Positions 8,706 through 21,210 are shown, counted from the first letter of the stretch. The stretch is 34,610 bases of DNA from Bacteroidota bacterium (GCA_028873925.1 JAPPNA010000107.1:1-34610), one strand, 5' to 3'. Numbers and translations are program-made. The notes: generated from the sequence alone by a model not told the origin.

Positions 8706-10535
8706 ATGACCATCCGCGGACTCCTTGTTGGTGCCCTATGCCTGACTGCGCTTCCGGCCGAAGCCCAGCGCACCAACAAACCTGTCCTACACGGCCGACA
8801 CTGGGTCGCCATCACCGGGAAACCTCTGGGGGCCACGGCGGGAGCCATGATGTTTGCCAAAGGCGGCAATGCCATTGATGCCGCCTGCGCGATGCTGGGG
8901 GCCACCAGCACCATGTGGGATGTCCTTAGCTGGGGCGGCGAGACCCAAGCCCTGGTATTCAACCCCAATACCGGCAAAGTAGTCGGCATCAATGCTCTCG
9001 GCACCGCGCCTACCGGCGCTACCGTAGATTTTTTCAAGAATAAAGACCTCAAGTATCCGCCCGAATACGGCCCGTTGGCGGCCGTAACCCCGGGTACACC
9101 GGGTGGGCTGATGGTCATGCTGGCCGAATACGGTACACTGTCGCTGGAAGATGTGCTGATGCCAAGTGTCCAGATGGCCGAGGGCTATCCCATTGAATCC
9201 TCCGCCGTGGGCAGCATTGGGCAGGAAAAGGACCGCATCAGGGAATGGCCCTACTCCGCAGCCGTGTTCCTGCCACATGCGGGAGAAGAGCGGGAAACTC
9301 CTGTGGCTGGTGAGATTTTCCGGCAGTCGGATCTGGCACAAACGCTACGCAAGCTTATAGAAGCGGAAGCTGACGCGCTTGCGGCCGGCATGTCCCGCAA
9401 GGAAGCCATTTATGCGGCCTATGACCGGTTTTACCGCGGTGACATCGCCGAAGAGCTGGTGCGCGGCACCCAGGAGCAGGGAGGACTCATCACCATGGAG
9501 GATCTGGACCGGTGGCAGGTCTACATTGAAGAGCCTGTGATGACCGGTTACAAGGGCATTCAGGTTTACAAACTCACCAGTTGGGTTCAGGGACCGGTCA
9601 TGCTGCAGGCCCTCAACATGCTTGAGTCCATGGACCTGAAGGCCATGGGCTACAATAGTACGCGATACATCCATGCGCTCTACCAAGTTATGAACATGAC
9701 GTTTGCAGACCGGGATTTCTATTACGGGGATCCCTACTTCCCACCCGCTGAGCCGATGGAGGGACTGCTTTCCAAGGAATACGCCAACGCCCGCGCGGCG
9801 ACCATTGACTGGACGCAGAACGATCCTAACATCGGTCCGGGCGATCCGTATCCGTTCCAGGGAGAAACCAATCCCTTTGCCGAGTATCTGGAGCAGTGGT
9901 CCGCTATTAACCCTCCCGCCGGCGGCGACGCTGCTGATATGGAGGATTTCTATGCGGGTACGACATCCATTCAGGCTGCAGATGCGGAAGGATGGGTGGT
10001 CTCCGTTACCCCCAGCGGCGGCTGGATACCCGCTGTCATCGCTGGCAATACCGGTATCGGACTGAGTCAACGGATGCAGAGTTTTGTGCTTGATCCGGCC
10101 GAGAATCCGTACAACCTGGTGGAGCCGGGTAAGCGGCCCCGGGCTACCCTCACCCCGGGCATGGCGCTGAAGGACGGAAAACCGTACTTATCCTTTGCCG
10201 TTCAGGGAGGCGACAGCCAGGATCAGAATCTGCTACAGTTCTTCCTCAACATGGTTGAGTTTGACATGAACGTGCAGCAGGCTGTGGAAGCAGCCAATAT
10301 CAACAGCTTTCAGCTTAAAGGCTCCTTTGGGGATCACGAAAGCCGCCCCGGACGGCTGCTGCTGCAGGATGGCGTACCGGACTGGGTCCGGCGCGAATTG
10401 CGTCAACTGGGCTATAGCCTGACCTTCAGTGCCCGGACATCCGGCCCGATCACCGCCATCTACTTTGATCGGGAGCATGGCACCCTGTGGGGTGCCGCCA
10501 GTGACCACGGCGAGGACTACGGCATTGCATGGTGA
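8706..10535 (+). CDS. Gamma-glutamyltransferase-family Ntn hydrolase, secreted
   Basis: A 609-residue exported protein with a signal peptide (MTIRGLLVGALCLTALPAEA, cleavage before Q21). The fold is that of gamma-glutamyltranspeptidases: GGNAIDAACAM in the large subunit, an autoprocessing site in the sequence YAGTTS, and a small subunit starting at T419. T419 would be both the cleavage-site and nucleophile residue. The family's usual TTH is TTS here, and the oxyanion stretch reads TPSGGW. The late RPRATLTPGMALKDGKP and FAVQGGDSQDQ match the small-subunit core, though the classical SGGGD loop is altered. It may cleave gamma-glutamyl or acyl amides in the periplasm; the substrate is not inferable. 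The stop overlaps the next start by 7 bases. Confidence 0.88.
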   Translation: MTIRGLLVGALCLTALPAEAQRTNKPVLHGRHWVAITGKPLGATAGAMMFAKGGNAIDAACAMLGATSTMWDVLSWGGETQALVFNPNTGKVVGINALGTAPTGATVDFFKNKDLKYPPEYGPLAAVTPGTPGGLMVMLAEYGTLSLEDVLMPSVQMAEGYPIESSAVGSIGQEKDRIREWPYSAAVFLPHAGEERETPVAGEIFRQSDLAQTLRKLIEAEADALAAGMSRKEAIYAAYDRFYRGDIAEELVRGTQEQGGLITMEDLDRWQVYIEEPVMTGYKGIQVYKLTSWVQGPVMLQALNMLESMDLKAMGYNSTRYIHALYQVMNMTFADRDFYYGDPYFPPAEPMEGLLSKEYANARAATIDWTQNDPNIGPGDPYPFQGETNPFAEYLEQWSAINPPAGGDAADMEDFYAGTTSIQAADAEGWVVSVTPSGGWIPAVIAGNTGIGLSQRMQSFVLDPAENPYNLVEPGKRPRATLTPGMALKDGKPYLSFAVQGGDSQDQNLLQFFLNMVEFDMNVQQAVEAANINSFQLKGSFGDHESRPGRLLLQDGVPDWVRRELRQLGYSLTFSARTSGPITAIYFDREHGTLWGAASDHGEDYGIAW

Positions 10536-13500
10536 TCAGGCGAATCGGCTTCGGGTGCGGCGGGCTGGCAGTGCTACTGCTGTTCGGTGGCTGCAGGCAG
10601 ATGGCTGACCGCCCGGTGGACTACAACTATGATGTGCGTCCGATTCTTGCAGATCACTGCTATAGCTGCCATGGCCCTGACCCGGAAAGCCGTCAGGCCG
10701 ATGTGCAGCTGCATACGCAGGACGGGCTGTATGCCCCCCTGCGGGACGACACCTCCCGCAAGGTCATCGTACCCGGCAATGCAAGCACCAGCGAACTGGT
10801 CCGCAGGATCACCCATTCGGATCCCCTGCAGCGGATGCCCCCGCCCGAAGCTCCACACGCCCTGACCCCGGAGGAAATCACAACCCTGACCCGATGGGTC
10901 AACGAGGGCGCTGTCTGGAAGCCGCACTGGTCCCATATACCTGCGCAGCTGCCCGCATTGCCGGACGTGTCCCGACCCTCGTGGGTCCGTAATCCCATTG
11001 ACCGGTTTGTGCTGGCCCGACTGGATCAGGAGCAGCTAAAACCTTCGCCAGAAGCCCACCGCCGGACCCTGATCCGGCGGTTGTATCTGGATCTGATCGG
11101 TCTTCCACCGCCGGTGAGTGAAGTCCGCGACTTCGCGGCAGCTTCTGATCCTGATGCCTATGAGCAGCTGGTTGATCGGCTGCTTAAGTCGGCTCACTTT
11201 GGAGAGCGTATGGCCCAGCACTGGCTGGACCTGGCCCGCTATGCCGACACAAACGGCTATTCCATTGATGGCGGTCGCCATATGTGGCTTTGGCGGGACT
11301 GGGTGATTGATGCCTTCAACGCGAATAAGCCTTTTGACGAATTCGTCATTGAGCAAATGGCCGGGGATCTGCTCCCGGATGCCACGGAAATCCAGCGCAT
11401 CGCTACCGGATTCCACCGCAATCACATGATCACGCACGAAGGCGGCACAATACCGGAGGAAAACCTGGTCAATTATGTGGCAGACCGGGTCAAGACCACC
11501 AGCGAAGTCTTCCTTGGATTAACGTTTGCCTGCGCTCAGTGCCACGATCACAAGTACGACCCCATCTCGCAGCGGGACTACTACCGGTTCTTCGCGTTTT
11601 TCAATAGTGTACCGGAGCGCGGGCTGGACGGGGATGGCGGCATCAATGCGGTGCCGGCAATCGAGGCGGTTACGCCGCTGGCCACAAAATCCGAAATCCG
11701 CCGGATCCGCGCAGGCCTTGACAGCTTGCAGGAACTGCAGCAACAACCCCATCCCGCGGAATCCAATTGGCGGCAGACCGAGCGGGCGGACCTAGCTTTG
11801 CTGGGCAAAGACCTGCGGCTTTATCCGCTGCCCGCGTTGAAAGTGACCACGCCGAATTCCGGCTTCACGGGCAACACATTGTCCGATGGCACCGTGGCCA
11901 TTGACCTGCCGGGTTGGCTGGCCGCCTACAATGTACTCCACCGCATGCCTGAGGATATTTCCGGCCTCATCACCGGGCTGCGGCTGGTGTTTTACCCGGA
12001 TGATGAATCAGGAGAGCTGGGATACGGCAACGATCTGCTACCGGGATCCTTTGCCATCACCAGCGTCCATGTGCAGGCTGGTGGACTGCCGGCCGATCAG
12101 GTTGACTACCACAACGCGGCTGCCGTAGCACAGGTAACAGCCTCCCATTTTCATCCCGACTATCCGCCTGAACAAATCCTTGATGACCGACGCCAGTCCG
12201 GCTGGTCTCCGGGCACGGTGCGATCGCGCCCTACACACCTGACGCTCACCTTCCAAACCCCGCTGGACGCGTCAGAAGTGTCCTATGTGACGGTCATGGT
12301 GAATTTTGGCATGGGTCAATCGATGGTGGCCCGACAGTGGAAGGCGTTTGCCATGACCGGTCATGATGATCGAGCCGTTTATTCGGATGCTGTACACCGG
12401 GCCCTGACCGGTGAGCTCGTTGATGACCAGCTGCTCCGGGACACCTTTTACCAGCGGTCCGAAGCGGCGGCCCCGATTCGCCATGCCATAGCCAACCTGG
12501 AAGAACGTCTGTCGGTGCTCACCGAGACCTACCCAACCATGGTCATGGCCCCAAGCGAGGATCCGCGGCCCACCCATGTTCTTTATCGCGGTCAGTATGA
12601 TCAGCCGCTGACCTCTGTTGAGCCTGGTGTACCGGTATGGATGCCGCAGCTGCCGGACAGCGCCGGGCGGCTAGCTCTCGCGCACTGGCTCATGGATCCG
12701 TCCCATCCCCTGACGCATCGTGTGACCGTGAACCGTTTCTGGCTGCTGCTGTTTGGTCGGGGCCTGGTAAGCACGCCGGCCGATTTTGGTGCACGCGGGG
12801 CCCTGCCTTCCCATCCTGATCTACTGGATTGGCTTGCATTTACCTTTGCCCAAAGTGGCTTCGATACCAAGGCCCTGCTCAAGACCATCGTAATGAGTGC
12901 CACCTACCGCCAGCAGAGTCATTCCTCCGGTGCCCTGCAGCAGCGTGATCCTCATAATGCGCTTTTGGCTCGCGGGCCACGCTTCCGTCTGCAGGCGGAG
13001 TTTATTCGGGACCAGGCGCTGGCCATCAGCGGACTTCTGGTCCGACATCTGGGCGGACCAAGTGTGCATCCTTACCAGCCCCCGGGACTTTGGAAAGAGG
13101 TCAGCCATTATGGCAGCACGCCGGCAACCGCACAGTCCTTTGCCCAGGATCACGGGGAAAAGCTGTACCGCCGCAGCCTGTACACATACTGGAAGCGCAC
13201 CGCACCGCCGCCGGGTATGATGATTTTTGACAGTCCGACCCGGGAGGTTTGTACGATCACCCGTGAACTGACCAACACGCCCCTGCAGGCCTTGGTGCTG
13301 CTCAATGACCCTCAGTTTGTTGAGGCCAGTCGGGCATTTGCGATGTTTCTGCTGGATGAAGTACCGCATAAGGAACGGATCTCGTATGCGTTTGAAGCCG
13401 CCACCGGCCGGCTCCCGGACGCGGAAGATGTACAACGCCTACAGGCACGCCTGGAGGAGGAGTTACAGGTCTTCACCAGGGACCCTTCGCGGGCCAAGGC

Positions 13501-13618
13501 GCTGCTGAGCGTGGGAGAGTCACCCGTAAGCACGCGGCATGATATTGCCGCGCAGGCAGCGTGGACGCTGGTTGCCAGTGCTCTGCTTAATCTGAGTGAA
13601 ACCATTACGCGCAGCTGA
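10529..13618 (+). CDS. PSD1-type cytochrome c lipoprotein (DUF1549/DUF1553)
   Basis: This 1029-residue protein begins with a lipoprotein signal (LLLFGGC, lipidated at Cys22). It has the planctomycete cytochrome c domain with heme motif CYSCH (C44, C47, H48), then DUF1549 (about 135-350), whose conserved [11 protein letters not shown] at 335-345 supplies a second C-x2-C-H, and DUF1553 near the end (about 715-990, with NRFW, DFG and [13 protein letters not shown]). Such proteins are abundant in Planctomycetes and occur in marine Bacteroidota/Rhodothermota. Roles in polymer breakdown or electron transfer are suggested for the family, but none is proven. Start ATGGTGA overlaps the GGT stop, a classic coupled junction. 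The DUF1501 partner follows. Confidence 0.93.
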
Positions 13619-13622
13619 AAGG

Positions 13623-15056
13623 ATGCACCCGCTTTGCGACTACGAGCGCACCATTACACGCCGTACATTCCTCGGGCAATCCGCCCGTGGAATTGGCCGT
13701 ATGGGACTGGCATCGCTGTTGTTTTCGGGGTTCATGCGGCAGCCGCGCGGCCCGCATTTTGCCCCCAAGGCACGCCGCATCATTTATCTGTTCCAGTCCG
13801 GCGGACCTTCTCATGTGGATCTGTTTGACTACAAGCCGCGCCAGCGGGATTTACATGCGACGGAGTTGCCCGATTCGATCCGCGGAGGTCAGCGCCTGAC
13901 CGGCATGACCGCCAGCCAGGCATCGTTCCCGGTGGTGGCCCCACACTGGCCGATGCGTCAGTGCGGCACACATAAGACCTGGATCAGCGACCTGCTTCCC
14001 CATACGCAATCTATTGCGGACGAAATCTGCATTGTAAAGTCGATGGTCACAGAAGCCATCAACCATGACCCGGCGATTACATTCATCAACACCGGCTCAC
14101 AGCAGATCGGTCACGCCAGTCTTGGGTCGTGGCTCAGCTATGGGCTGGGCAGCGAAAATGAGAATCTCCCCGCCTATGTTGTGCTGCTGTCGCAGGGCTC
14201 CGGCAAAAATCCGGGGCAGCCGATTTTTGCCCGTTTATGGGGCAGCGGCTATCTGCCAAGCAGCCATCAGGGCGTGCTGCTGCGGCCCGGGGTGAACCCC
14301 GTCTTGTATCTCAAGGACCCGCCCGGTGTCACCCGAGATCAACGCCGACGCATGCTCAATGATGTCGTTGAGATCAACCGCAAGGAGGCCGAGCAGGTCG
14401 GAGACCCCGAAATTCTCGCACGGATTGAAGCTTATGAAATGGCTTACCGCATGCAGAGTGCGGTGCCGGAACTGACTGATTTTTCTGATGAATCGGATGA
14501 AGTCTTTGCACTATACGGGGCCCAGTCCCGGCGGCCCGGCAGCTACGCGGCCAACTGCCTGCTGGCCCGCCGTCTGATTGAACGTGGCGTGCGATTTGTG
14601 CAGCTGTTCCATCGGGGATGGGACCAGCACATTGCGCTGTTCAAGCAGCTGCCCGCTCAATGTCTGGACGTGGACCAGGCTTCTGCGGCCCTGGTCAAGG
14701 ACCTCAAGCGTAGGGGACTGCTGGAGGAAACGCTGGTAGTGTGGGGCGGTGAATTTGGCCGCACCGTCTACAGTCAAGGCGAGTTGGGCCATCCCAGCAG
14801 CGGGCGCGACCATCATGGCCGCTGTTTCACTTTATGGATGGCAGGCGGCGGCATTCGGCCGGGATTTGAATACGGGCGTACGGACGAATTTTCCTACAAC
14901 ATCGTCGAAAACGCGGTACATATCCGGGACCTGAACGCCACGCTGCTCCATCAACTCGGCATCGACCACACCCGGCTCACGGTTAAGTTCCGGGGGCTGG
15001 ACCACAAACTAACCGGCGTGGAGGAGGCGCATGTCGTCCGCGACATTCTAACGTAA
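13623..15056 (+). CDS. DUF1501 family protein, probable Tat substrate
   Basis: The 477-residue protein belongs to DUF1501, an alkaline-phosphatase/sulfatase-like fold that nearly always travels with DUF1549/DUF1553 proteins. It starts with a twin-arginine-type signal ([13 protein letters not shown], then a hydrophobic stretch). Family motifs are [15 protein letters not shown] near residue 60, GSWLSYGLG, a late [10 protein letters not shown], and [17 protein letters not shown]. The ATG at 13623 is preferred over an upstream in-frame GTG at 13596, which overlaps the end of the preceding gene. It lies 4 bases past the PSD1 stop. The reaction is unknown; export across the membrane in folded form is inferred from the RR signal. 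Confidence 0.9.
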
Positions 15057-15748: not shown

Positions 15749-16957
15749 CTAATTGCTCTCCGACATGCCCGCACAGGCCTGTACCTCTTCAACCTTTTCC
15801 ATCTGATTGGTCTGGGCATAAACCTGGTACAAGGCAAAGCAGATCTGCTCCAGGTTGTCTGCCTCTTCGTTTTGGGCCACCTGCCGAGCCTGTTCCAGAG
15901 GCTCTTGCGCCTGCTCGTACAGGGCGACGCGGGTTGCAATCATCCCATCCAGCTCTTCGGTTTGTGTGGTCACCTCCTCTTCAGTTAAATCGTTTCTGGC
16001 CGCTCTGAGCGCGTCATCCTTCTCATTGATGTCCTGCTGAAGATCGTTGGCCTTGTTTATGTAAGCCGCCCCAAGATTGTACAAGGCATCCGTATAGCCA
16101 CCATCAATACCCACCGCAACGATCAACTGCGCAATGGCCTCATCATACCGCTCCGCCTGCAGCAGCAGAGACCCGTAATTGTACCGGTATATCTGGTTGT
16201 CCGGGCTGCCCATGACAGCGTTCTCATAGGTGGCCAAAGCCCGCTCCGCATTCCCAGTCTGAGCATACGCATTGAGGAGAAAGTCCTGAAGATCGGGTGC
16301 CTCCAGACTGTCTGTAAATAGCGCCCGCTCCAACAGCGGCACCGCCTCCTCCGCACGATCATTGGTCAGCATAATGCGGGCCAGCAGCGAATAGCTGTCC
16401 GCGTCAGGTCCCCCAAGAACCAGGGACTTCGTCAGCGGATCAACGGCACCCACATCATCTCCGGCACCCATCAGCGCATAGGCCCAGTTGACATACGAAT
16501 CCGCCGAATCAGGCTGCGCAATGGAGCTGGCCTCAAAATGCGCTGCCGACATGAGATAGTACCACTCAGCCGAGTCAGCCGCCGCCGCACGCGCACTGTT
16601 GAATTCCGCAATGCCGGCGTTGAATTCCGTCACCCATTTGTTGATCATCAGCAGATTTATCTTCTGCTCCTCACGCGGCCGCAGCTCAATGACCCGGTCA
16701 TAGGCGCTCTTCATCTCACGGATGTGCCCCACATACTCCGCTGGCGGTGTACCGGCAGCCATGGCTTCATGAATCCGGGCCAACACATCATGCACGCGGT
16801 GATCGTCCGGGTCGCTCTCAAGGACTCCGTTGGCCTGCGCCATAGCTTCCGACAGCTCACCCGATCTCAACGCGCGTTCTGCGCGCCGCAGATTCTGAGC
16901 CGAGGCATCAATCGCAACCCCCAAGAGTAATGTTAGACTCAACAATAAGTATCTCAT
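15749..16957 (-). CDS. Periplasmic TPR-repeat protein
   Basis: A 402-residue protein with a cleavable signal (MRYLLLSLTLLLGVAIDASAQ). About seven tetratricopeptide-like helix pairs follow, for example EAMAQANGVLESDPDDHRVHDVLARIHE, YDEAIAQLIVAVGIDGGYTDALYNLGAAYINKAND trimmed to its TPR spacing of W/Y/L, A and P positions. A charged, coiled-coil-prone insert sits near residues 315-345 (INEKDDALRAARND, EEEVTTQTEE). The ATG at 16957 is chosen because it starts the signal; an upstream ATG at 16999 adds 14 non-signal residues. It is the last gene of the operon, 42 bases after the MMPL stop. TPR proteins usually scaffold complexes, so a partner role for the exporter is inferred. Confidence 0.85.
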   Translation of the reverse strand: MRYLLLSLTLLLGVAIDASAQNLRRAERALRSGELSEAMAQANGVLESDPDDHRVHDVLARIHEAMAAGTPPAEYVGHIREMKSAYDRVIELRPREEQKINLLMINKWVTEFNAGIAEFNSARAAAADSAEWYYLMSAAHFEASSIAQPDSADSYVNWAYALMGAGDDVGAVDPLTKSLVLGGPDADSYSLLARIMLTNDRAEEAVPLLERALFTDSLEAPDLQDFLLNAYAQTGNAERALATYENAVMGSPDNQIYRYNYGSLLLQAERYDEAIAQLIVAVGIDGGYTDALYNLGAAYINKANDLQQDINEKDDALRAARNDLTEEEVTTQTEELDGMIATRVALYEQAQEPLEQARQVAQNEEADNLEQICFALYQVYAQTNQMEKVEEVQACAGMSESN

Positions 16958-16999
16958 GGCCGCCTTGCAGTAAATGGTACACAGGTTCAATATAATCAA

Positions 17000-19522
17000 C
17001 TAGTTCTCGCTGTTCCACAATCGGCCTACGTCCTCCAGCCACTGGATCAGCGCTGGCAGCAGGATCAACGCCGCCAGAATTGTGGCCCCGATGCCAGCTA
17101 TAGCCAATGATCCCACGGTGTTCAGGCCGGGGTGAAAGCTCAACAGCAGTCCGCCGAAGCCTACCATTGTCGTAAGCGCCCCAATTGAAACATGTTCTCC
17201 GGTCGAACGCAGTACGCCCCGCATCTTCAAGCGTCCCTCCTCCCGGTAGCGATGCACAAGATGCGCTCCCGCATCGTTGCCGATCCCGATAATGGCCGGT
17301 ATCACCACCAAATTGTAGAAATTCAGGCGCATCTCAAACAGCTCCATAAACAGGATCATCCAAATGACACCGATCACCAAGGGGGTCATCGCCAGGATGG
17401 ACCATCGCAGTCGGACAAAGTTGACCCACATTAGCAGCCACACCACAATCAGCGTGGCGACCACCATAAAGGGGCTTTCCTGCCGCATAAGTCGCAGCAC
17501 ATCCGCAGCCACAATGGAAGAAGAACCGGCATGATGCGTCTTGCCATCCGGGGTCGTGACCGAACCGACCTGCCGGGCAAACGCCATTGACTTGCGACCA
17601 TCTGACAATCCGACCGCCGGAATGATCGTGATGAAGTTGCCCAGCTCACCAGTCTTGGAGGTGAATCGCCTGCGGAGCAGCTCCGGTACATCCTCAATTG
17701 CAATTCGTGTGCGTGTCTGCGCCGCCCGGCTGAGCCGCGCCAGATCAGGATCAGATTCCAGGCTCAATATCGGATCCGCCAAGAGCGTGTCCCGGATGTA
17801 CGCAAGACGCGCCAGCCTCGCCCGGGCAGCGGGCTCATCCATGGCAAACCGCTCCTGCAGCGTTTCAATCACCCGCACGGTAGAGCGAAATGTGTCTGCA
17901 TCAACCACTTTTTTCGTGGTATCCGAAGCCAGCCTACGCCGCAGCACGGCCGCCACGGCCGGAGCCTCCGCCGGATCATCTACTACGATATAGGCCGGAT
18001 TACGTCGGTGAAAATCACTCCAGGCACTGGCTACCTTGGCGTTGATCGGAATCCAGTCCTCGTATTCCGGCTCAAGCTCGGCAAAGCGATACTCAAACTC
18101 CACTCCCGGAGCCAGTACCAGTGCCAGCAGTGTCGCTCCCACACTGGTTACAAGCGACACCCGCACACCCCGAATCCGACCCCCCACAGCCGCCAGGACC
18201 GGTTTTTTCACCTCAAAACGCAGCAGGCCGTACCGCTCCGCCAAAATCAGCACGCACGGCAGAACGTGCAGCATCGCCGCCAGGGCGAACAGAATCCCCG
18301 TGCCTGCCAGGAATCCGAACTGACTGAATCCCTTAAAGTCCGCCACCATCAGGATGTACAGTGCGGCAGCCGTCGTCAGTGCTCCTACAGCAATCGCCTG
18401 GCCCGTACTCATAAAGGTACGCTCGGCTGCGCCGTGCGGATCGTGTCCCTTTCCGCGCTCCTCAATGTAGCGGGCGTAAAAGTGGATGCCGTAATCAATG
18501 CCTAATCCAAACAGAACCAGACCCAGCGTGGAGCTGAGCAGATTCAGCGTGCCAAAGGCCAAGTATCCCACGCCCGCGGTCCAGGTCAGACTCATAAGCA
18601 GCGGCAAACCAATGACAACTGCGGTCAGGGGCGCACGCAACAACTCCGCTCCAAAGGCCTGCCGTCCGCGTACCTGAAGGGCCTTGTAGAAAAAATAGCC
18701 CGTTACCACGAAGAGCACCGCCAGCAGCCCCGCCCCGAATGACCGCCCTATGTCATCGGTAATGGCCCGTATCTCAATCCGCTGACGCCACAAGCGCCCC
18801 GCCAGATAGGTCTTCATGTCCGCATGGAATACCTGGGGCTCAGTATCCCTGATCAGCTGCTCCAGCAACCCGTAAATCCGCTCTATGTAGGTCACATCAG
18901 TAGCCGAGCCGCTCACAAAGAATCGCGCCACCAGAATGGTGCTGTCAGGATTTACGAGATACTCGCGCCCCACAATCTCATCATAGGTCTGCCGAAGATC
19001 CGATGCCCGGTCGTCATGATCAGCGGACTCCTCGTCTTCATCAAGGCTGAAGTAAAACGGGTTTGCCTCCAGTTTGGCCTCGGTTATCAGTTCCTCCAGC
19101 CAGCTCTCCAGGTCGTCCAATTCCCGATCCGTCGCGAAATACAACCCGTTGTCGCGGAGAAACTCGGTGTCCCGGCGCAGCTCTGACCTCAGGAACAACC
19201 GCTCACCCGTAGATGCGTCCCTAAGGCTGTCAACCTTCGGCAGAAGTGCCTCTCCAAATGCCCTGTTCGCTGCAAATGAAGGGCTTTCAATGGCCAGATC
19301 CACCGATACCTCTCCGGCACCCAAGGTCTCGCGTATCCGCTCGGCCGCCTGCACACTCGGATAGGACTCCGGCAACAGATGGGCAAAATCCGGGTCAATA
19401 ACCAGATGCGAGGCCAGATATACGCTGCCCACTGTTACCCCCGCGGCGATAAGCAGCACCAGCCATGCCCGCCTGAGTACGAGCTCAAGCCACGGTCTGA
19501 GCTGGCTGAAAATGTATGCCAT
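17000..19522 (-). CDS. MMPL/RND-superfamily exporter (HpnN-like)
   Basis: The 840-residue membrane protein has the RND two-fold layout: TM1 (about 20-38), a large periplasmic loop (40-240), TM2-6, TM7, a second loop (about 470-660), and TM8-12. The duplicated TM4/TM10 motif is visible as FGLGIDYGIHFYARY and GIGNDAGAHLVHRY, matching the MMPL branch that includes HpnN hopanoid transporters and mycobacterial lipid exporters. The second loop carries a helical segment (ARARLARLAYIRDT). RND proteins of this kind are proton-driven and move lipids or hydrophobic molecules out of the inner membrane. The lipid cannot be told from sequence; no hopanoid genes are in the window. It begins 12 bases after the DUF3047-like gene. 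Confidence 0.9.
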   Translation of the reverse strand: MAYIFSQLRPWLELVLRRAWLVLLIAAGVTVGSVYLASHLVIDPDFAHLLPESYPSVQAAERIRETLGAGEVSVDLAIESPSFAANRAFGEALLPKVDSLRDASTGERLFLRSELRRDTEFLRDNGLYFATDRELDDLESWLEELITEAKLEANPFYFSLDEDEESADHDDRASDLRQTYDEIVGREYLVNPDSTILVARFFVSGSATDVTYIERIYGLLEQLIRDTEPQVFHADMKTYLAGRLWRQRIEIRAITDDIGRSFGAGLLAVLFVVTGYFFYKALQVRGRQAFGAELLRAPLTAVVIGLPLLMSLTWTAGVGYLAFGTLNLLSSTLGLVLFGLGIDYGIHFYARYIEERGKGHDPHGAAERTFMSTGQAIAVGALTTAAALYILMVADFKGFSQFGFLAGTGILFALAAMLHVLPCVLILAERYGLLRFEVKKPVLAAVGGRIRGVRVSLVTSVGATLLALVLAPGVEFEYRFAELEPEYEDWIPINAKVASAWSDFHRRNPAYIVVDDPAEAPAVAAVLRRRLASDTTKKVVDADTFRSTVRVIETLQERFAMDEPAARARLARLAYIRDTLLADPILSLESDPDLARLSRAAQTRTRIAIEDVPELLRRRFTSKTGELGNFITIIPAVGLSDGRKSMAFARQVGSVTTPDGKTHHAGSSSIVAADVLRLMRQESPFMVVATLIVVWLLMWVNFVRLRWSILAMTPLVIGVIWMILFMELFEMRLNFYNLVVIPAIIGIGNDAGAHLVHRYREEGRLKMRGVLRSTGEHVSIGALTTMVGFGGLLLSFHPGLNTVGSLAIAGIGATILAALILLPALIQWLEDVGRLWNSEN

Positions 19523-19534
19523 AACTGTCGCCTG

Positions 19535-20239
19535 CTAGTTTTCCGGCAAGAGAACCAAATTGTCAAAATACACCTCCGATTCCCCCTCGGTGGTATCCGA
19601 ATCCCCCCAGAGCATGATGAAGCGCGGGTTGCCCGGCGGATCCTCTCCAAACAACGACCTGTAATCTTCACCAACATCACGCTCAACGGTCTGCCACTGT
19701 CCAATACCCTCCGCACCGCTGGAAACCACCAGTACACGCAGCCTGCGGTAATGGGCCGTTGTGCCTATTTCCAGAGAGGTGCTGTAAACATACTTGATGA
19801 TACAGGGCCGCCGAAGCCAGTCCGCACAGTCAAAGGCCACATACAGCGCGCCTCCGGTGTCGTTAGTCTCGGACCGCGTCTCCAGTGCCTCTTGCGGCAG
19901 CCGCAGCGCCTTCCACTGCCATGACAGGCGAGGATGCGCACGCAGGTCCCATTTCAGCTTTTCTCCATCAGCCGGCAGCAATATCTGAACGGACTCAGCA
20001 CGGGTATAGACCTGCAATACCTGGCCGCTGCCGTCCCGAATGACCCTCACAAAGTCACCCGGTCGGGCGTGATTCGGCGGAATCGGTGTCAGCACGTTTG
20101 AACCCCGGCTTGAAACAAACCACGCCGTGGGCAGGCCCCCGACCGCATACCCTTCAAAATCCTCTAACACCACCGCCTGCTGGGCAAGCGCAGTTCCTTG
20201 GCCCAGCGCCAGCACTACCAGAAGAGCCCTGTGCATCAT
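19535..20239 (-). CDS. DUF3047-type secreted protein
   Basis: A 234-residue exported protein with signal MMHRALLVVLALGQGTALAQ. The mature part resembles DUF3047: an LSWQWKALRLP strand, a cluster of acidic residues, ALYVAFD, then VVSSGAEGIGQWQTVERDV, DYRSLFGEDPP, and a terminal WGDSDTTEGESEVYFDNLVL, a jelly-roll-like pattern with conserved Asp residues. The function of DUF3047 is unknown to me. The ATG at 20239 overlaps the TGA of the upstream flippase-like gene (bases 20234-20239 read ATGATG), so translation is coupled. An in-frame ATG at 20275 lies inside that gene and is less likely. Confidence 0.78.
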   Translation of the reverse strand: MMHRALLVVLALGQGTALAQQAVVLEDFEGYAVGGLPTAWFVSSRGSNVLTPIPPNHARPGDFVRVIRDGSGQVLQVYTRAESVQILLPADGEKLKWDLRAHPRLSWQWKALRLPQEALETRSETNDTGGALYVAFDCADWLRRPCIIKYVYSTSLEIGTTAHYRRLRVLVVSSGAEGIGQWQTVERDVGEDYRSLFGEDPPGNPRFIMLWGDSDTTEGESEVYFDNLVLLPEN

Positions 20240-21210
20240 GGCTGCGTCACCTTTTTCGCCAGATGTCGCGGCCATGCCGACAGCGTCACAAAAAACAGCA
20301 GACTGATCAGGCGATGCAGCACCACGACAGCCCCGAACATAGCCAGGATTTCCGGTTCAGGCACGCTTAGCGTACCGGCGAGCCCTACCGCCATCCCCAT
20401 GGTCATCAGATCGTGATTGGGTACCAGCGGTATGCGTGTCACGATAATGGAGATCGCTGCGTACGTAAACCAGACGGCCAGCGGGATCTCCGGCAACGCT
20501 ACATGCCACATGTAAATCTCCATCACCTGCCGCACCAGCTGCCGGCCCACATGCAGCCCGAACACCATGGCAGCCGGCCTGCGGGGCATCGAAAACAGGT
20601 ACTTTCGCAGCCGCATGACCACCAGAATCAGCACCACGGTAAACGCTGCGGCTGCGACTATTCCGGCCATCTCGGTATCCCCTATCAGATCACGAATGTT
20701 CAGCTGTCCGTTGAGGGCAAAAAGCGTCACCAGTACAGCCGCCACACCGGTCGATGCGGCCGCTGACAGAATATTCATGTCGCGGACGGTCTCCATCAGA
20801 GCCCGGTCCGACAGCCCGATATGGTGCCGTGCCCAGGCATAGATGTATACCTCGCCGGAATACCCCAGGACATCCTTATTCAAGATACGCTTAACGACAA
20901 ACGCCCCGGCTGCCTCATGCATGGAGAACGGCCAGACGATCCGGTAGGCGGTAAGCTGCATCGCTGGCAGCAGGAAGTATATCACTACCGCCAGCCCGTA
21001 AAAGCCCCATTCCAGTGGTAGAGCCCGCAATACATCCGCCACATCCAGTTCAACGAGCTTGTAGACCAGGTACCCGACCACTCCGAGGGTCAGGCCGTAT
21101 CTGCCCACCTGTACCATCCGCGCCCCCCTGGGGGACTGTGCAAAGGCGTTCGCCTGGCCCGGCAGCGCCGCGATCTGCTGCCAGCGAGCCTTCCAAAACC
21201 GGTCGGGCAT
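20236..21210 (-). CDS. Flippase-like (LPG synthase TM-domain) membrane protein
   Basis: The 324-residue protein has seven or eight predicted membrane helices, starting near residue 38 (GLTLGVVGYLVYKLV). The pattern is that of the lysylphosphatidylglycerol synthase transmembrane / UPF0104 group: helix pairs around a conserved LNKDVLGYSGEVYIYAWAR stretch and a late VTRIPLVPNHDLMTMGMAVGLAG. Members of this group include flippases and glycan-lipid translocases, often with no catalytic domain. No synthase domain follows. It is first in the operon, facing the MaoC gene across a 115-base intergenic region that should hold its promoter. A lipid substrate shared with the MMPL exporter is inference from context. 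Confidence 0.75.
   Translation of the reverse strand: MPDRFWKARWQQIAALPGQANAFAQSPRGARMVQVGRYGLTLGVVGYLVYKLVELDVADVLRALPLEWGFYGLAVVIYFLLPAMQLTAYRIVWPFSMHEAAGAFVVKRILNKDVLGYSGEVYIYAWARHHIGLSDRALMETVRDMNILSAAASTGVAAVLVTLFALNGQLNIRDLIGDTEMAGIVAAAAFTVVLILVVMRLRKYLFSMPRRPAAMVFGLHVGRQLVRQVMEIYMWHVALPEIPLAVWFTYAAISIIVTRIPLVPNHDLMTMGMAVGLAGTLSVPEPEILAMFGAVVVLHRLISLLFFVTLSAWPRHLAKKVTQP

Follow-up and report, generated by a model that had tools for sequence, protein, structure and literature searches.

The partners of the hopanoid pump HpnN include HpnL and HpnM, the latter an MlaC/Ttg2-like protein that is possibly a hopanoid carrier, and to our knowledge DUF3047 proteins are not part of hpn clusters. 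HpnN itself is an RND/HAE-3 pump that carries hopanoids to the outer membrane (cited in PMC12583986). The sterol transport system BstABC of Methylococcus pairs an HpnN-like RND pump with two periplasmic lipid-binding proteins (PMC10942540), of which BstB is PhnD-like and BstC TRAP T-component-like; no flippase is described for this system. In the flippase MprF of R. tropici the core of subdomain 1 consists of two inverted motifs and LysPG-binding cavities are present (PMC8131360). An annotated lysylphosphatidylglycerol synthase (BT_1521 homologue) is found near both inositol-lipid clusters of Bacteroides/Prevotella, one of which contains an NTP transferase proposed to make CDP-inositol (PMC9246714). 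MmpL3 and its relatives are likewise RND lipid exporters, but these are Actinobacterial and their sequence similarity to the pump considered here is weak. For Bacteroidota-like bacteria we know of no described route that takes inositol lipids or glycolipids to the outer membrane.

The window (the whole stretch of DNA analysed, 34,610 nucleotides) carries four tandem ORFs on its minus strand (21210-15749), referred to here as FLIP, DUF3047, MMPL and TPR (Table 1). An initial sequence-only reading took all four to be a single lipid-transport unit and knew of no named system with such a composition. The latter statement is fair, although the components have counterparts in the export of hopanoids (HpnN with HpnM) and of sterols (BstABC). 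As in the HpnN system, an RND/HAE-3 lipid pump presumed to serve the outer membrane is present, and several relatives have an MlaC-type carrier next to FLIP or DUF3047; the differences are that MMPL lies far under the HpnN cut-off and that the order contains no above-cut-off hopene cyclase. The combination of a pump with candidate periplasmic lipid binders is shared with BstABC, and BstC resembles a TPR-like protein, but neither BstB nor BstC is of the jelly-roll type. If the export reading developed below is correct, the locus would help to explain how inositol-bearing lipids reach the cell surface.

Gene structure and conservation of the locus

The four ORFs are considered to be genes because homologues of all four occur in related genomes, with ~40-72% identity for the better conserved ones. 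The tandem arrangement and spacing reported in the initial reading are confirmed in the sequence: FLIP and DUF3047 overlap at an ATGA, which is likely to reflect translational coupling, DUF3047 and MMPL are separated by 12 bases, and MMPL and TPR by 42 bases if TPR starts at the ATG at 16957 (with the TTG at 16999 as start, the two genes would abut). The promoter and terminator scan was uninformative, with counts no higher than in shuffled sequences, and it detected no sigma-70-like promoter on the operon strand. A divergent MaoC-like gene and recF lie upstream of FLIP. The source genome comprises 3.93 Mb in 185 contigs, and among named relatives the closest DUF3047 proteins are encoded by MAGs labelled Rhodothermales.

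Table 1. Features of the four-gene locus in the window
Feature	Coordinates	Strand	Description
FLIP	20236..21210	-	324 aa; multi-helix inner-membrane protein with predicted fold of the MprF lipid-flippase/scramblase domain
ATGA overlap	20236..20239	-	FLIP stop shares bases with the DUF3047 ATG (from sequence)
DUF3047	19535..20239	-	234 aa; secreted all-beta jelly roll, carbohydrate-binding-module-like (Pfam PF11249, model)
MMPL	17000..19522	-	840 aa; RND-superfamily lipid exporter, HpnN-like (Pfam, NCBIfam, PDB)
TPR	15749..16957	-	402 aa; signal peptide; several Pfam TPR families

Co-occurrence was analysed in 94 Rhodothermales genomes, each at least 85% complete, in which the family labels (f1 and so on) are nameless designations given by the tool. 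FLIP, DUF3047 and MMPL are all present in 73 of the 94 genomes and all missing from 8; MMPL occurs alone in 9, so that FLIP and DUF3047 are both absent from 17. Three genomes retain DUF3047 and MMPL without FLIP (which is present in 74/94), one has FLIP and MMPL without DUF3047, and none of the 94 contains FLIP or DUF3047 without MMPL. The co-occurrence of FLIP and DUF3047 has a Fisher p of 9e-15 over the 94 genomes, but owing to kinship the genomes are not independent cases and this value exaggerates the significance. Where the genes share a contig, DUF3047 and MMPL are adjacent on the same strand in 46/58 genomes, and FLIP and DUF3047 are adjacent in 31/59 and no more than 12 kb apart in 57/59.

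Many Rhodothermales families share the order and orientation of FLIP-DUF3047-MMPL, and the usual surroundings are UvrA, GT4b and GT4a, followed convergently by MMPL, DUF3047, FLIP and, after an interval, MAOC, M48, RecF and MurQ. At L182, which comes from a family without the module, the conserved neighbours GT4a and MAOC have none of the three genes between them. None of the three is found in one member of the window's own family (G015), but this is likely to be a gap in the assembly, since the contig stops ~2 kb beyond TPR. FLIP and DUF3047 move, persist and vanish jointly, even away from the ancestral locus (L065, L198). It is therefore likely that FLIP, DUF3047 and MMPL act together; this is the best-supported statement that can be made about the locus, and the proposal of one functional unit is supported for these three genes by conserved order, co-occurrence and co-loss. 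Separation of the genes in relatives had been put forward as evidence that would count against such a unit: MMPL does lie apart from FLIP and DUF3047 in some genomes, including several that are Salinibacter-like, where it is at least 200 kb from DUF3047, yet all three genes are kept there. Two genomes (G070, L192 3743-7466 and L193 5373-10373; also G071) possess two FLIP copies, one directly upstream of MMPL and the other near DUF3047, as if MMPL and DUF3047 had each kept its own flippase.

The fourth gene does not belong to this unit, contrary to the initial proposal. It is only within the window's own family that TPR neighbours MMPL, ~0.05-5.2 kb away and sometimes with a beta-propeller gene between the two, whereas in other families the best TPR homologues are weaker and lie elsewhere in the genome. 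We therefore rule out TPR as a core gene and regard it as a lineage-specific neighbour with a possible accessory role. In the source genome the GT4 pair is located on another contig (L170, G000:C155), and a DUF1501 gene, with a 1029-aa ORF before it, lies instead 3' of TPR on the opposite strand (window 10529-15056); a rearrangement has thus replaced the usual neighbour in this genome.

Predicted properties of the three proteins

FLIP has no sequence match in Pfam, NCBIfam or PDB. Among 22 FLIP members, none matched LPG_synthase_TM in Pfam or NCBIfam at E up to 5, and no link to HpnL or solved structures was detected at the sequence level. An AlphaFold2 model built from the window protein and 21 relatives (pLDDT 86) nevertheless aligns with six MprF entries over 255-275 residues, nearly its full length, at Z 15.4-16.9 (VIA structural alignment), compared with Z 5.2 for the best match other than MprF; MprF is also the top Foldseek match, at a weak E-value (0.06). 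The predicted structure thus has the fold of MprF flippase subdomain 1, which upholds the earlier description of the first gene as flippase-like at the level of a lipid-flippase fold. FLIP differs from the MprF flippase domain (LPG_synthase_TM/UPF0104 type) in that its ~320 residues correspond to subdomain 1 only, with neither a synthase domain nor a match to the LPG_synthase_TM sequence profile. Judging from this fold, FLIP is probably a protein of loose specificity that passes lipids from one leaflet to the other.

DUF3047 matches Pfam PF11249 with 96 bits (cut-off 27), and its N terminus is signal-peptide-like, ending in ALAQ, in agreement with its initial description as a secreted, signal-bearing protein. 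The AF2 model (pLDDT 91.7) is an all-beta jelly roll, most similar to the beta-sandwich of D-glucuronyl C5-epimerase (Z 14-15) and to axonemal jelly-roll proteins (Z 13-14), followed by a complex I assembly factor (Z 11-12) and by CBM families 11, 16, 29 and 30 (Z 10-12). Given the jelly-roll fold and the signal-peptide-like N terminus, the protein would suit a role in the periplasm as a binder of a head group that bears a sugar or polyol, although the fold is common and its ligands vary. Fold resemblance is no demonstration of function for FLIP or for DUF3047, and in the case of FLIP it comes without a sequence-profile link to MprF.

MMPL scores 103 bits against the Pfam MMPL family (cut-off 20.5). 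Its hydropathy profile shows TM1, a large loop, TM2-7, a second large loop and TM8-12, and at least 97% of the 34 orthologues compared retain D343 (TM4) and N749-D750 (TM10), as would be expected of a proton-coupled RND pump. The Pfam score, the two halves with large periplasmic loops and the charged TM4 and TM10 residues place the protein in the MMPL/RND superfamily and substantiate its initial identification as an RND-type lipid pump. The nearest named family is HpnN, with HAE-3 next (NCBIfam), but the scores fall well below the cut-offs (243 bits against 752 for TIGR03480 and 135 against 1100 for NF052374), as does that for the BstA sterol transporter (NF045600; 110 against 1400). The closest PDB matches are also HpnN structures (5khn and 6wu0).

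We suggest that FLIP-DUF3047-MMPL is an envelope-lipid export module whose cargo is most likely an inositol (glycero)phospholipid, a reading to which we assign about an even chance overall; that the module moves lipid outward is, taken separately, probable. The direction of transport, energy source, DUF3047 ligand and cargo are all inferred. Judging from the neighbouring genes, the lipid, which would have a bulky polyol as its head group, would be made at the inner leaflet of the inner membrane. FLIP, with its MprF-like fold, would transfer it to the outer leaflet of that membrane, from where MMPL, as an HpnN-like RND pump, would lift it at the expense of the proton gradient. The fold, secretion and gene neighbours of DUF3047 are consistent with a periplasmic protein that grips the lipid by its head group and assists in handing it on, possibly alongside an MlaC carrier in some lineages, with delivery to the outer membrane by analogy with HpnN.

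Cargo and alternative explanations

The genomes that are informative with respect to the cargo are those in which FLIP or DUF3047 is found outside the usual locus or in an additional copy. In four families (f2, f5, f7 and f14) the computational comparison places myo-inositol-1-phosphate synthase (MIPS) and/or NTP_transf_3 beside DUF3047 or FLIP. For example, in one genome (G087, L198) a single strand encodes DUF3047, NTP_transf_3, MIPS, a Glyphos_transf-like protein, FLIP and MlaC, the last two overlapping, and in another (G043, L065) FLIP, Glyphos, MIPS, NTP and DUF3047 likewise share one strand. The order DUF3047-NTP-MIPS is found in G021 (L190) and L051, and is extended by Glyphos in G074 (L221), where FLIP and MlaC follow ~6-8 kb further on. 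The arrangement is MIPS-NTP-DUF3047 in G075 (L223, L222), with FLIP beside MlaC, and is divided between separate contigs as NTP-DUF3047 and Glyphos-FLIP-MlaC in G086 (L225, L226); in G030 FLIP lies ~2 kb from MIPS-NTP (L237) and MlaC overlaps DUF3047 (L111). The presence of MIPS within ~3 kb in at least 5 of 77 genomes has a probability of ~8e-6 under random placement of one MIPS per genome, a value that is weakened by kinship and comes from inspection of part of the genomes. MIPS was found beside the module in no member of the window's own family, nor in the ~0.9 of 3.9 Mb of the source genome that was read, and MMPL was never seen beside MIPS.

The Bacteroides/Prevotella inositol-lipid clusters resemble these loci in possessing MIPS, an NTP transferase and an MprF-type annotated neighbour; their description (PMC9246714) mentions neither DUF3047 nor MlaC, both of which are additional components in the Rhodothermales, as is an RND pump. 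The candidate cargo is an inositol (glycero)phospholipid that would be made via myo-inositol-1-phosphate and probably CDP-inositol, perhaps with further glycosylation. The synthesis of inositol phospholipids from CDP-inositol was described in Rhodothermus, and R. marinus was reportedly studied by Jorge et al. in 2015; our literature search for Rhodothermus inositol phospholipids found nothing useful. Two Rhodothermus loci (L124 and L126) carry FLIP-DUF3047, the former with MMPL as well. We consider the odds that the lipid moved is inositol-based to be roughly balanced. In Rhodothermus and Roseithermus (L124, L122, L126) the interval between MAOC and FLIP contains genes for a Wzi-like capsule assembly protein, an HTTM protein, an unclassified membrane protein and a GT2, which suggests a link to surface polysaccharide.

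The main rival explanation, possible though unlikely, is that the same machinery transports a glycolipid made by the GT4a/GT4b pair, such as a glycosyl-diacylglycerol or a glycosylated phospholipid, rather than a plain inositol lipid. GT4b is convergent to MMPL and within 6 kb of it in 52/65 same-contig genomes; it resembles lipid glycosyltransferases, matching GlcNAc-phosphatidylglycerol synthase best (162-177 bits, cut-off 480), and MshA-type inositol-phosphate glycosyltransferases also score highly. At L119, L127 and L067 FLIP and GT4b lie on one strand and overlap or abut, some f5 genomes have FLIP on one strand with both GT4b and GT4a, and the carbohydrate-binding-type fold of DUF3047 would fit such a cargo. 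Against this, the pair, of which GT4b is present in 91/94 genomes, is mostly convergent to the module rather than co-transcribed, sits on a different contig (C155) in the source genome, and remains where the whole module has gone (f4, L182). We have therefore set aside the GT4 pair as proof of cargo; its position is weak evidence, because UvrA, RecF and MurQ share the synteny without a functional link.

The genes might instead encode three separately acting envelope proteins held together by synteny, FLIP being a general phospholipid scramblase, MMPL a hydrophobe efflux pump and DUF3047 an unrelated secreted protein. The syntenic housekeeping genes around the module, the nine genomes with MMPL alone and the distant MMPL of the Salinibacter-like genomes are compatible with this explanation, but the joint relocation, persistence and loss of FLIP and DUF3047 (L065, L198), and their absence wherever MMPL is lacking, render it improbable. 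Because MMPL persists without FLIP and DUF3047 in those nine genomes, it may serve another cargo too. Transport of a hopanoid or other triterpenoid by an HpnN-type pump is rejected as highly improbable: HpnN is the nearest named family and solved structure, and triterpene-cyclase-like matches of 244-266 bits occur in seven genomes (G008, G010, G012, G013 and G014 of the window's own family, G029 and G095), but the hopene cyclase cut-off of 431 is exceeded in 0/94 genomes, the source genome has no match at all, and MMPL scores far below the HpnN and BstA cut-offs, so that hopanoid genes, which the initial reading had named as a potential refutation, do not account for the pump.

Returning to the export of inositol lipids, DUF3047, for which the literature searched yielded a single paper, could tentatively represent an unrecognised family of periplasmic inositol-lipid carriers, forming a dedicated outer-membrane route in the Rhodothermales together with an RND pump and a stand-alone flippase of the MprF fold, and operating with MlaC in other phyla; we regard this broader proposal as rather doubtful. 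In Latescibacterota (L135, L138; ~3.1-11.3 kb) DUF3047 is preceded by a gene that looks like that for an outer-membrane efflux protein and followed by MlaC, with an NTP_transf_3/CDP-alcohol phosphatidyltransferase fusion gene some 5 kb from DUF3047; this other phylum may thus possess an export system related to the one proposed here. The module provides DUF3047 with a concrete role that is testable in the cultivable relatives Rhodothermus, Salinibacter and Roseithermus.

The window protein belongs to a DUF3047 subfamily that matches positions 20-197 and is distinct from a full-length type present at other loci of the order. This second type scores 237-265 bits at L002-L012 (G024, G027, G028, G036, G038, G044-G047, G052 and G053) and also occurs in families without FLIP; neither FLIP nor MMPL was found among the neighbours examined at L072-L078. 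A DUF3047 gene is also present in a record titled as a Klebsiella pneumoniae MAG (L136), which is probably a mis-binned or mislabelled contig.
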